From Gloeomargarita sp. SRBZ-1_bins_9 (GTDB lineage Bacteria > Cyanobacteriota > Cyanobacteriia > Gloeomargaritales > Gloeomargaritaceae), in contig JAUQVX010000004.1 in NCBI GenBank assembly GCA_039794565.1, forward strand, positions 1-64,000: a stretch of DNA of 64,000 nucleotides, in the 5' to 3' direction. Every line of letters starts with the position of its first letter. Within the stretch, counting starts at the first letter, position 1. Both the position numbers and the translations under genes were made by a program. The notes under the pieces were generated by a model. The model was not told the origin of the DNA. It saw nothing but the letters and a program-made list of their open reading frames with translations, and made no database searches. This document shows, piece after piece, positions 59,844 to 63,835 of this stretch.

Positions 59844-60707
59844 ATGACTGACCCTATTCTACTGTACCAGGTGGATGCCTTCACCCGGCGGCTTTTTGCA
59901 GGGAATCCGGCAGCCGTCTGTGTATTGACCCAGGCCCTTCCCCGGGAACTATGTCAGGCGATTGCCCAGGAAAATCAGTTGTCGGAAACGGCATTTATCC
60001 AACGCCGGGGCGAGGGTTATGCCATCCGTTGGTTTACCCCGACTTGCGAAGTGGACCTGTGCGGCCATGCCACCCTGGCAGCGGCCTACGTAGTAGGGGA
60101 ATTTCTAGAACCCGGTTGCCCGGTCGTCCGGTTTGCCAGTCGGCAGGAACAATTACAGGTGCGTCGTCAGGGGGATGGGTGGGAGTTGGATTTTCCCCGT
60201 TGGTCCTTGACTCCGGCTACGGCCCCAGCCCCTTTGGTCAGCGGTTTAGGGATCACTCCCCAAGAAGTTTGGCAAACCCCGCGCGATTTACTGGTCGTAG
60301 TCCCCAGCGCCGAGCAGGTACAAAGCCTGCAACCCAACCTGGACCAACTGGCCCAATTGGATAGCCTAGGGGTCATCGTCACCGCGCCAGGTCGGCAGGG
60401 GGTGGATTTTGTGTCCCGCTTTTTTGCGCCGCGCCTGGGGATTCCCGAGGACCCGGTGACCGGTTCAGCCCATTGTGCCCTGGCCCCCTACTGGAGCGAC
60501 CGCCTGGGGAAAACCGCCCTCTACGCCCGGCAACTATCGGCGCGGGGTGGGGAACTCTGGTGCCGGGTCACCCCCGATCGGGTGTTGATCCGGGGGAGCG
60601 CCGTTTGTTACCTGAGTGGGCAAATTCATTTACCCGAATCAACAGGCGCTTGGGAACTTTTTGGGTCTGATAGACGACCGGGATGGCAACCGATCCAAGG
60701 GGAGTGA
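59844..60707 (+). CDS. PhzF-family isomerase/epimerase
   Basis: A 287-residue protein with the two-domain diaminopimelate-epimerase-like fold of the PhzF family. LYQVDAFTRRLFAGNPAAVC, then SETAFI with the catalytic Glu, IRWFTPTCEVDLCGHATLAA and GIPEDPVTGSAHCALAPYWS agree. Members act as isomerases in phenazine formation and in unknown pathways, and the substrate here cannot be assigned. ATG 59844. Confidence 0.9.
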   Translation: MTDPILLYQVDAFTRRLFAGNPAAVCVLTQALPRELCQAIAQENQLSETAFIQRRGEGYAIRWFTPTCEVDLCGHATLAAAYVVGEFLEPGCPVVRFASRQEQLQVRRQGDGWELDFPRWSLTPATAPAPLVSGLGITPQEVWQTPRDLLVVVPSAEQVQSLQPNLDQLAQLDSLGVIVTAPGRQGVDFVSRFFAPRLGIPEDPVTGSAHCALAPYWSDRLGKTALYARQLSARGGELWCRVTPDRVLIRGSAVCYLSGQIHLPESTGAWELFGSDRRPGWQPIQGE

Positions 60708-60712
60708 AGTTT

Positions 60713-61111
60713 ATGTCTAAACCGACATGGCGGCGCTGGTGGCCCTGGACGCTGGGCTTAACTTTGGGTTTGGCGGCCTTACCCATACTGCGGGTTCAAG
60801 CCCAAGCGGATACCCATGGGGCAATTGCCTGGTCCCGCCGGACTAACGCCCAAGGGTACGCCTGGGGTTATCGCAGCCGGTTTGGAGCGGAAAGCCGGGC
60901 GTTGCAGGAGTGTGAGGCGCGGTCGGGGTTCGGGGATTGCCAGGTGGTGGTGTGGTTTCGCAATGCCTGCGGGTCCATTGCGGAAACGGCGGATGGTTCC
61001 GTTGGTTACGCCTGGGCTGGAACAAGGGCTGCTGCCCAATCCCGGGCGCTGGAGGCGTGCCGGCGCTATGGGGTTTGCCGGGTGGCTCGCACCTTCTGCT
61101 CCTACGATTAA
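60713..61111 (+). CDS. Secreted DUF4189 protein
   Basis: A 132-residue protein with a signal peptide (RWWPWTLGLTLGLAALPIL, cleavage near VQA-Q). The mature part fits DUF4189: HGAIAWSRRTNAQGYAWGYR, ESRALQECEARSG, CQVVVWFRNACGSIAETADG and AQSRALEACRRYGVCRVART. Its conserved cysteines probably form disulphides in the periplasm. ATG 60713 has GGGGAG upstream. It ends 4 nt into dnaN on the other strand (TTAA). Function unknown. Confidence 0.85.
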   Translation: MSKPTWRRWWPWTLGLTLGLAALPILRVQAQADTHGAIAWSRRTNAQGYAWGYRSRFGAESRALQECEARSGFGDCQVVVWFRNACGSIAETADGSVGYAWAGTRAAAQSRALEACRRYGVCRVARTFCSYD

Positions 61112-62256
61112 CCCCGCAGCTGAATGGGCATGACCAGATAGAGCATCTGCGTTTCCCCTAGGGGGGCAAAGATCACTGGCGCGGTGGCTGAGTTGAGTTG
61201 AATCTGCACCTGGGAAGCGTTCATGGCCTTGAGACCCTCCAGGATATAGCGCACGTTAAAGGCCACCTCCAGGGCCTCTCCCTCAATTTCAGCCGCCAGT
61301 TGCTCCCGTCCCTGGCCGAGTTCACCCCCTTCGGTTGTTAGGGTCAGGTTGTCCAGGTCCAGGACAAACTTCACCACGTTGCGCCCCCCCACTATTACCG
61401 CCAACCGTTCCAGGGCCTGCATCAAGCTTTCCCGGTCCACCAACACCCGCCGGGCAAAGGTCTTGGGCAATAACTGCCGGTAATTGGGGTACATCCCGTC
61501 GAGTAGGCGTGTTACCAACCGCTGCTGCCATCCATTCCCGGACGGCGCCGGCAAGCGAAAATCTGCCTGGTGCGGTTCCAGAGCCAACTGCAAAAACTCC
61601 CCCTCGTACTTGCCCAGGAGCCGTTCCACCTCCCGCAAGGCCCGCGCCGGAATCGTGGCTTGCACCGGAGCTTGGCTGGTTGTCAAAGCGGTTTCCACTA
61701 TCGCCAGGCGGTGGCCATCGGTAGCAGCAAACTCCAGGACATCTTCGCGGATTTGCAGGTGCACACCGGTGAGAATCTGCTTGGTTTCATCGGCGCTGGC
61801 GGCAAACAACACCCCCCGCAACCCCTGCAAAAATGCTTCCCGTTCCAGAGCGATAGGCGGAGCCGTAACGGCAGGGAGCACGGGAAAATCGGCAGCTGCC
61901 AAGCCGGAGATCTGGTATGGCCCGGCTAGGGTATCTTTTTTGCCATCCCGGTTGCAGAACGCCCGCAACGTCACTTGTAGCTGTTCGGCCCGCACATCTA
62001 CATCCGCATCGGGAAAACGGGCAATCAAACTTTCCAGCGTCTTGGCCGGCAAGGTAATGCTGCCCGGTTCATGGACCTGCGCCGGCATCCAGCTTTGCAA
62101 GTACAAGCTCTGGTCAAAAGCACTCAGCAGAATTTGGTCCTCTTTAGCCTCTAACAAGACGTGGGCCAGGATAGGGTTGGTAGGACGGTTGGCAACGGCG
62201 CGACTGATAAGACCAAGATGACTGCTAAGGTCCTTTTGCCCACAGGTCCAGTGCAT
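61108..62256 (-). CDS. dnaN: DNA polymerase III beta subunit (sliding clamp)
   Basis: A 382-residue clamp of three repeated domains (starts near residues 1, 130 and 250), with the family stretches HLGLISRAVANRPTNPILAHV, SLIARFPDADVDVRAEQLQVT, ATDGHRLAIVETALTT and the C-terminal YLVMPIQLRG. It tethers the polymerase to DNA and recruits repair factors through a hydrophobic pocket. The gene reads away from the origin region just upstream. In many bacteria dnaA lies next to dnaN; here it does not. Confidence 0.96.
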   Translation of the reverse strand: MHWTCGQKDLSSHLGLISRAVANRPTNPILAHVLLEAKEDQILLSAFDQSLYLQSWMPAQVHEPGSITLPAKTLESLIARFPDADVDVRAEQLQVTLRAFCNRDGKKDTLAGPYQISGLAAADFPVLPAVTAPPIALEREAFLQGLRGVLFAASADETKQILTGVHLQIREDVLEFAATDGHRLAIVETALTTSQAPVQATIPARALREVERLLGKYEGEFLQLALEPHQADFRLPAPSGNGWQQRLVTRLLDGMYPNYRQLLPKTFARRVLVDRESLMQALERLAVIVGGRNVVKFVLDLDNLTLTTEGGELGQGREQLAAEIEGEALEVAFNVRYILEGLKAMNASQVQIQLNSATAPVIFAPLGETQMLYLVMPIQLRG

Positions 62257-62294: not shown

Positions 62295-62570
62295 CCCTAC
62301 TACTACTACTACCGATCATAAGTACTTTTATTAGATCAGTAGTAGTAGGGCCTGTGGATATGTGGATAACTCCTGTGGACAGCCGATGGGACGGGCGTTT
62401 GCCGTTGGGCCGCCTGTGGATAACCTGTGGATAACCTGTGGATAAAATCCCAACTTATCCACAACCCCGGTTTTTTATCCACAGCTGGCCCCGACTTATC
62501 CCCAAATCATCCACAGCCCTGGCCCGAGTTATCCACAGATTTTCCCGACTTATCCACAAGTTATCCACAG
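62295..62570. other. Chromosome replication origin (oriC) with DnaA boxes
   Basis: Nine perfect TTATCCACA boxes: reverse-facing at 62361-62369, 62415-62423, 62426-62434, 62437-62445 and forward at 62455-62463, 62475-62483, 62529-62537, 62550-62558, 62561-62569, plus near matches at 62353, 62496 and 62507. The three at 62415-62445 are spaced 11 bp apart. Next to the outer pair are a GC block GGCCC, trinucleotide AGTAGTAGTAG (62338-62348) resembling DnaA-trios, and an AT-rich segment (62314-62337) for strand opening. dnaN lies beside it, as in other cyanobacteria. Confidence 0.92.
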
Positions 62571-62597: not shown

Positions 62598-63686
62598 TTA
62601 ACAATTGGTAAGGGTCGGGGTTGGGTTACATGGTTCCAGGGCTGTGCCGAAGCGTTCCCAGCGGCAAAAGTGCAAGTTATCTGGCCAGGGGCAGCCGTTG
62701 AGGTAGTCCCTGATGACGTCGGCGGTGATGGGGGCCAGCAGGATGCCGTTGCGGTAGTGGCCGGTGGCGAAGGTGAGGTTGGGCCAGGGGCTGGGACCCA
62801 AGATGGGGAATTCGTCGGGGGTCAGGGGGCGGTAACCCCACCAGGTTTCCACCAGGGGCCAGTCCCGCAGGGGGGGGTAGGTGGCCATGGCTTGTTGCAA
62901 CAGGGTCTGCAGACCGCCGGCGGTGACCCCGTCTTGGAAACCGACATCTTCGCTGGTGGCCCCCACTACCAATTGCCCATCCCGCCGGGGAATCAGGTAA
63001 GCCGGGCCAAACACCACCTGGCGCAGGGGCAAGGTGTCTCTGGGCATTCGCAGAGCCAACATCTGTCCCTTGCGGGGATAGACGGGGAGGTTGAGGAGCT
63101 TATGGGTCCAGGCGCCGGTGGCCAAGATGTAATGATCCGCCTGATAGATGGCTGAGGGGGTGGTGACCTGGCTGATCCGACCCTGGGTCTGGTGAATTTG
63201 GATGACGGGTTCCGCCGGCCTCAATTGCACACCCAGGGCTTGGGCGGCTCGTTGCAGCAGGTGGATCAGGCGGCGGTTGTCCACTTGGCCGTTGTCGGGA
63301 TACCACCAGGCGCCGATGAATTGTTCACCCAAACCAGGTTGGCGGCTATCCAGCGCTGAGCGGTCCAGCCAAATCCCCGTGTGGTTGCCGGGGGCAGGGG
63401 TGGTCACGGGCGCCAGGATGCCGCAGGGCCAGTAGCCCGCCGATGCACCGGTGAGCTGTTCCAGTTCTTGTATCCAGGTGGGGTAACGTTGGAGGCTGGC
63501 CTGGCAAAGGTCGCGCATGGGTCCAGGGGGGAGTTGTTCAGCACCTGGTGCCAGCATACCTCCCGCCGCTGTGGCTGCCTTACCAGGAAAACCCGCGTCC
63601 AGAACAATCACCCGCCTTTGGCCTTGGGCCAGCGCAACTGCAATGCTCAGCCCAATCATGCCCCCGCCGAGGATGCAAACGTCCAT
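62598..63686 (-). CDS. thiO: FAD-dependent glycine oxidase ThiO
   Basis: About 362 residues. Rossmann loop DVCILGGGMIGLSIAVALAQ at the N-terminus, then RRVIVLDAGFPGKAATAAGG, AAGGMLAPGAEQ and, in the C-terminal substrate domain, IPRRDGQLVVGATSEDVGFQ and YRPLTPDEFPILGP. ThiO oxidises glycine to iminoglycine for thiazole synthesis in thiamine. In some cyanobacteria it is fused to ThiG, here it stands alone. ATG 63686 starts right at the Rossmann fold; a start at 63716 would add ten residues. Other amine oxidases of this fold cannot be fully excluded. Confidence 0.87.
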   Translation of the reverse strand: MDVCILGGGMIGLSIAVALAQGQRRVIVLDAGFPGKAATAAGGMLAPGAEQLPPGPMRDLCQASLQRYPTWIQELEQLTGASAGYWPCGILAPVTTPAPGNHTGIWLDRSALDSRQPGLGEQFIGAWWYPDNGQVDNRRLIHLLQRAAQALGVQLRPAEPVIQIHQTQGRISQVTTPSAIYQADHYILATGAWTHKLLNLPVYPRKGQMLALRMPRDTLPLRQVVFGPAYLIPRRDGQLVVGATSEDVGFQDGVTAGGLQTLLQQAMATYPPLRDWPLVETWWGYRPLTPDEFPILGPSPWPNLTFATGHYRNGILLAPITADVIRDYLNGCPWPDNLHFCRWERFGTALEPCNPTPTLTNC

Positions 63687-63835
63687 GCCTGCTGCGTTAA
63701 CTCGACCGTCTTTCATCCTAGCCGACCGTCGAGTGGCCTAGGGTGGCAATAGGACTACGACCAGGCGGGTGTTTAGTTGTTGACCGTCCCGATAGCCCAG
63801 TCCAGATACTGCTCCAGCAGCGATGACATGAGCCT

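Follow-up and report, generated by a model that had tools for sequence, protein, structure and literature searches.

A very probable chromosomal origin in a Gloeomargarita-like cyanobacterium carries TAG arrays that face each other across an AT-rich core

Does the intergenic segment beside dnaN in this Gloeomargarita-like genome contain the chromosomal origin, and what in its sequence might allow DnaA to engage both strands once the duplex is open? We addressed these questions in a window of 64,000 nucleotides, which is the whole stretch of DNA analysed here (contig C4 of a host assembly of 21 contigs, 2.22 Mb and 99.98% completeness). The second question has a wider bearing, as the loading of a helicase on the second strand has been described as not understood (PMC10721633; PMC10201434). 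The sole sequence element proposed for this step, the DnaD recognition element (DRE), applies to DnaD-containing Firmicutes according to the account in which it is described (PMC10201434).

The origin segment and its near unwinding module

The segment (62295-62570) sits between dnaN on one side (61108-62256, minus strand; a DNA polymerase III beta clamp with three Pfam beta-clamp domains) and, on the other flank, a gene for an FAD-dependent oxidoreductase of the DAO family (62598-63716, minus strand; glycine-oxidase/ThiO-like). A small DUF4189 protein (Pfam PF13827) is encoded on the plus strand at 60683-61111, adjoining dnaN and convergent with it. Nine perfect TTATCCACA boxes were identified at 62361-62569, of which the minus strand carries four and the plus strand five, in agreement with a previous sequence-only reading that had described a cluster of nine such boxes beside dnaN. 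These represent 9 of the 24 copies found genome-wide, and all nine fall within 209 bp. Specifically, the more permissive motif TTWTNCACA was matched 13 times in the window compared with 3.1 matches expected, and none of 100 shuffles reached 13. The segment has the intergenic DnaA-box cluster adjoining dnaN by which an oriC is recognised. The strong box of the unwinding module lies on the minus strand at 62361-62369, and three more boxes (beginning at 62415, 62426 and 62437; 62415-62445) share its orientation. The other five (62455, 62475, 62529, 62550 and 62561; 62455-62569) run in the opposite orientation on the plus strand. Two convergent box groups, one in each orientation, are usual and were found in most of the cyanobacterial origins tested.

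Direct reading of the minus strand gave the order TTATCCACA-TATCCACA-GGCC-CTACTACTACT-GATCTAATAAAAGTACTTATGATC-GGTAGTAGTAGTAGTAGGGG. The succession of boxes, GC block, trios and AT-rich run reported earlier was hence recovered; the 'GGCCC' and 'TACTACTACT' named in that report are the identical sequence (GGCC and CTACTACTACT) in another register. The partial, trio-proximal box TATCCACA (62353-62360, minus strand) is identical throughout Gloeomargaritaceae. It is followed by the GGCC spacer between box and trios (62349-62352), a position that is G+C-rich in nearly all cyanobacterial BUS modules, and by the near trio array (62338-62348), which reads CTACTACTACT on the minus strand and supplies the canonical DnaA-trios as TAG on the plus strand. 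The adjoining AT-rich core of 24 bp and 25% G+C (62314-62337), which separates this array from the second one described below, is probably the duplex unwinding element (DUE). The near array comprises three full trios at 12 nt from TTATCCACA, in keeping with the published definition of a BUS as at least three trios within 16 bp of a DnaA box (a strong box typically at 10-13 bp), for which a spacing peak of 10-13 nt is given (PMC8287927). A BUS also calls for a cognate DnaA that has ATPase and DNA-binding domains, and one is encoded: dnaA is intact on a separate contig (G000:C8), and its 461-aa product has N-terminal, ATPase and box-binding domains.

The near module resembles the BUS of Bacillus subtilis (DnaA-box 6/7, GC spacer and DnaA-trios) in its tandem boxes, GC-rich spacer, AT-rich DUE and polarity, with 3'-GAT-5' trios on the strand opposite TTATCCACA. 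The same module is also reported from the same phylum, where the DnaA of Synechococcus elongatus unwound its own BUS in vitro and both boxes and trios were needed (Pelliciari 2021, PMC8287927). In L050, which we take to be S. elongatus, the boxes are TTTTCCACA, whereas our locus has perfect TTATCCACA boxes together with TAG x5. The sequence-only reading had suggested that trio-based strand opening works in this cyanobacterium too; the underlying oriC with a BUS is well supported, but the suggestion is not news, given the S. elongatus work of 2021. Among cyanobacterial regions upstream of dnaN, 48 of 70 contained a BUS, most commonly as TTTTCCACA-TTTCCACA-GCCC-CTACTACTACTA, and the box-trio distance was 12-13 nt in most of 74 distinct cyanobacterial examples. 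The near BUS alone is ordinary for cyanobacteria, and it adds one member to a known class whose mechanism has already been published for the phylum.

Whether close relatives conserve the boxes and trios had been proposed as a check on the origin. A dnaN search provided seven relatives (G001-G007), which included six further genomes in the host genus and one in the host family, and boxes and trios were present in 7/7. The near module is kept in each of them in its entirety (box, TATCCACA, GC-rich spacer and CTACTACTA). Because the relatives keep boxes, spacer and trios, the spacing is 12 nt and an intact dnaA lies elsewhere in the genome, the reading as an oriC with a BUS is well supported, and we are highly confident that the chromosome of this Gloeomargarita-like cyanobacterium has its oriC at 62297-62569.

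GC skew, for which a minimum at the locus had been predicted, lent the position of the origin no independent support. A cumulative minimum was present in the contig itself, but it was weak and placed 10 kb from the locus, and the complete genome of a congener (G004; 3.05 Mb) showed no skew change at dnaN (p = 0.49; 39 samples of 20 kb). Typical GC skew is reported to be commonly absent in cyanobacteria (PMC10225481), and for this reason we do not consider the result a refutation of the origin. As a proof of origin, GC skew was uninformative in the contig as well as in the 39-point congener sample.

A facing trio array on the opposite strand

The earlier description of the segment was accurate, but it ended before the more unusual part of the locus. 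Five CTA repeats on the plus strand at 62297-62311 correspond to 5'-TAG-3' x5 (3'-GAT-5' trios) on the minus strand. This far array faces the near trios from across the 24 AT-rich bp, on the opposite strand, and is located 41-55 bp upstream of the dnaN start. The motif CTACTACTAC occurs at a handful of sites genome-wide, and the facing pair was found only at oriC. Compared with the already known cyanobacterial BUS, the facing array is the new part.

A degenerate far counterpart was found in 7/7 relatives from the genus and family, with only 2-4 degenerate trios in each: GAG-TAG in G002-G005 and G007, GAG-GAG-TAG in G006, and GAG-GAG-GAG in G001. Within Gloeomargarita, the perfect version is specific to the host genome. 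Beyond the far element of the sister genus (G007/L015; G007:C110, near dnaN) comes a perfect mirrored DnaA box, GGAGTAGACGGCTGTGGATAA; judged from its sequence, the far side forms a complete mirrored BUS, and the whole a two-sided one. We rejected a mirrored BUS with its own far box as a general reading, since a DnaA box adjoining the far array was seen in G007/L015 only, and neither in the window nor in the other facing-array genomes.

We give about even odds to a reading in which this oriC has a two-sided trio DUE and each strand is captured by one of two DnaA sub-complexes of opposite orientation. DnaA at the minus-strand boxes (62361-62445) would spread to the near trios on the plus strand and open the AT-rich core in the manner of a standard BUS. 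Once open, the core would bare the far TAG x5 array on the minus strand, and DnaA from the opposite box group (62455-62569) could capture that strand via the array, probably by recruitment of the single-stranded DUE (ssDUE) and not from an adjacent box. With both strands held in opposite polarity, the bubble would be kept open and each strand would offer one DnaA platform for one helicase. From the arrangement and conservation of the arrays, we infer that DnaA binds the far array and that the array has a role in helicase loading, which would make it a candidate cis element for loading on the second strand. Mirror-image arrays turn up again in other cyanobacteria and could be part of the explanation for how a helicase comes to be placed on both strands. 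With more reservation, we suggest that in some cyanobacterial origins DnaA could assemble on single-stranded TAG arrays of both strands in opposite polarity, and that one helicase per strand could in this way be specified by the DNA, with no DnaD-like strand-specific loader; this extension is tentative, and we lean slightly against it.

Some steps of the two-sided reading have precedents in other bacteria. In the eTrio DUE of Thermotoga maritima, three single-stranded TAG repeats are reported to be the element captured by the DnaA-box complex, both required and sufficient for box-bound DnaA to bind (PMC10316083). This is a precedent for strand capture without an adjacent box; it differs from our locus in that the source describes one array and, as far as its account goes, reports no facing counterpart (PMC10316083). 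In the oriC of Escherichia coli, a single DUE adjoins two oppositely oriented box groups, and each half of the DnaA region is described as assisting DnaB loading (PMC13220808), which is a precedent for each half helping to load one helicase. In contrast to the two-sided reading, ssDUE capture is described there for one strand, and TAG arrays facing across the DUE do not figure in that description (PMC13220808). In B. subtilis, trios are reported on one strand and the DnaD recognition element on the other (PMC10201434), whereas our locus has two trio arrays that face each other.

Recurrence of the far array: chance or selection

In a pattern search of 390 Cyanobacteriia genomes, 21 carried BUS-anchored facing arrays, and these represent 9 genera from 7 families. 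The unfiltered pattern counts were discounted considering that they included chance hits and that a reversed-pattern control was not lower; the counted hits were those anchored on a real BUS (CCACAG-spacer-CTACTACTA) and picked by eye. Most cyanobacterial origins with a near BUS had no clear far array, and the far array is therefore not essential in general. The far side of L050, which we take to be S. elongatus, has at most TAG-TAA.

The far-side motif TAGTAGTAG (up to two mismatches) was found in 12 of 48 origins that were chosen without regard to their far side, compared with 3.2 in dinucleotide shuffles, and 0/200 shuffles reached 12. In a set from another collection, it was found in 12 of 40 origins vs. 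2.9 in shuffles (0/100 reached 12). The two sets overlap partly and the shuffle tests ignore shared ancestry, hence the genus and family counts given above. Control motifs in the 48 origins were at or near chance (reverse complement CTACTACTA, 2 vs. 0.7; reverse GATGATGAT, 3 vs. 2.9; complement ATCATCATC, 0 vs. 1.1 in shuffles), and the enrichment of the far motif is strand-specific.

This strand specificity speaks against the alternative that survives best, which we nevertheless consider unlikely. It holds that the BUS is one-sided and that the far array is a functionless by-product, made in frequently single-stranded DNA by slippage or by quasi-palindrome template switching. Trinucleotide arrays can slip, and the by-product explanation would be consistent with a near BUS that is general in cyanobacteria on its own, with the many origins that have no far array, and with a perfect array confined to the host genome within Gloeomargarita. 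It is at odds with the conservation observed in a Thermosynechococcus-like genus (g29), where the far AGTAGTAGTAG was perfect and invariant in 11/11 species over a 400-bp alignment, whereas the loop between the arrays varied, both in length and in sequence, and the species diverged in the flank outside the far array. Such an alignment is what selection on the far array would produce, and the presence of the facing array in 3/3 sampled species of another genus (g98 of family f23) points the same way.

In the Thermosynechococcus-like genus, the box cluster and BUS occupy another part of the chromosome and keep the same box-trio arrangement (L196-L206), and no BUS was found within 400 bp upstream of dnaN (L020, L021, L023 and L028). 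In most of its species, short GATC/AGATC inverted repeats, which are partly conserved, occur just beyond the far array (e.g., AGATCCTTAGGATC).

Structural, promoter and alternative-origin readings

Less probable still is that both arms act as a hairpin or cruciform (for single-strand initiation, or as a primosome or protein-binding structure) and not as DnaA trios. The arms do form an inverted repeat, with single-strand fold z values of -4.3 and about -4.7 in the window and about -6 in the Gloeomargarita lithophora-like G004, and apparent matched changes, which keep the hairpin in contention, were seen in G004 (GCCTCTACT/AGTAGAGGC) and in G002 and G003 (GCTCTACT/AGTAGAGC). However, the matched change is broken in G005. 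Moreover, among 74 distinct cyanobacterial DUEs, only the 23 with a far trio-like motif showed the fold bias (mean z -2.1, vs. -0.04 in the other 51). The loops of Thermosynechococcus were no more self-complementary than shuffles, and those of Gloeomargarita only slightly more. Given loops of this kind and no folding bias in origins that have no far motif, we rejected the hairpin as a class-wide feature. The GAG x3 of the G001 far arm also weighs against a structural role, as it disrupts one pair in three yet retains an A in every third position. With regard to DnaA, the middle trio base is reported to be contacted by Asn187 of the B. subtilis protein (PMC10721633).

The position of the far array close to the dnaN start in the host could suggest that it belongs to the promoter or leader of dnaN. 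We dismissed this as very improbable, because the array is kept in Thermosynechococcus, where oriC is away from dnaN, and no long shared reading frame covers it.

That the true origin lies elsewhere, e.g., at a box cluster on contig C6, and that the dnaN locus is a regulatory DnaA site would agree with a skew that does not point to dnaN and with the boxes at C6:4102-4176, but this is the least probable reading of all, since no trio array (CTA trios) was found in the C6 stretch read, whereas the dnaN locus has 9 boxes and a BUS conserved family-wide. The C6 cluster (L256 = G000:C6:3101-5400, at about 969-1080) is a second intergenic box cluster, with three perfect TTATCCACA boxes (C6:4102, 4123 and 4168) and TTATCCCCA near-boxes, and is possibly a DnaA-titrating or reactivating site. 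It lies between frames that resemble an FAD-type oxidoreductase and a glycosyltransferase, both named from their translations only.
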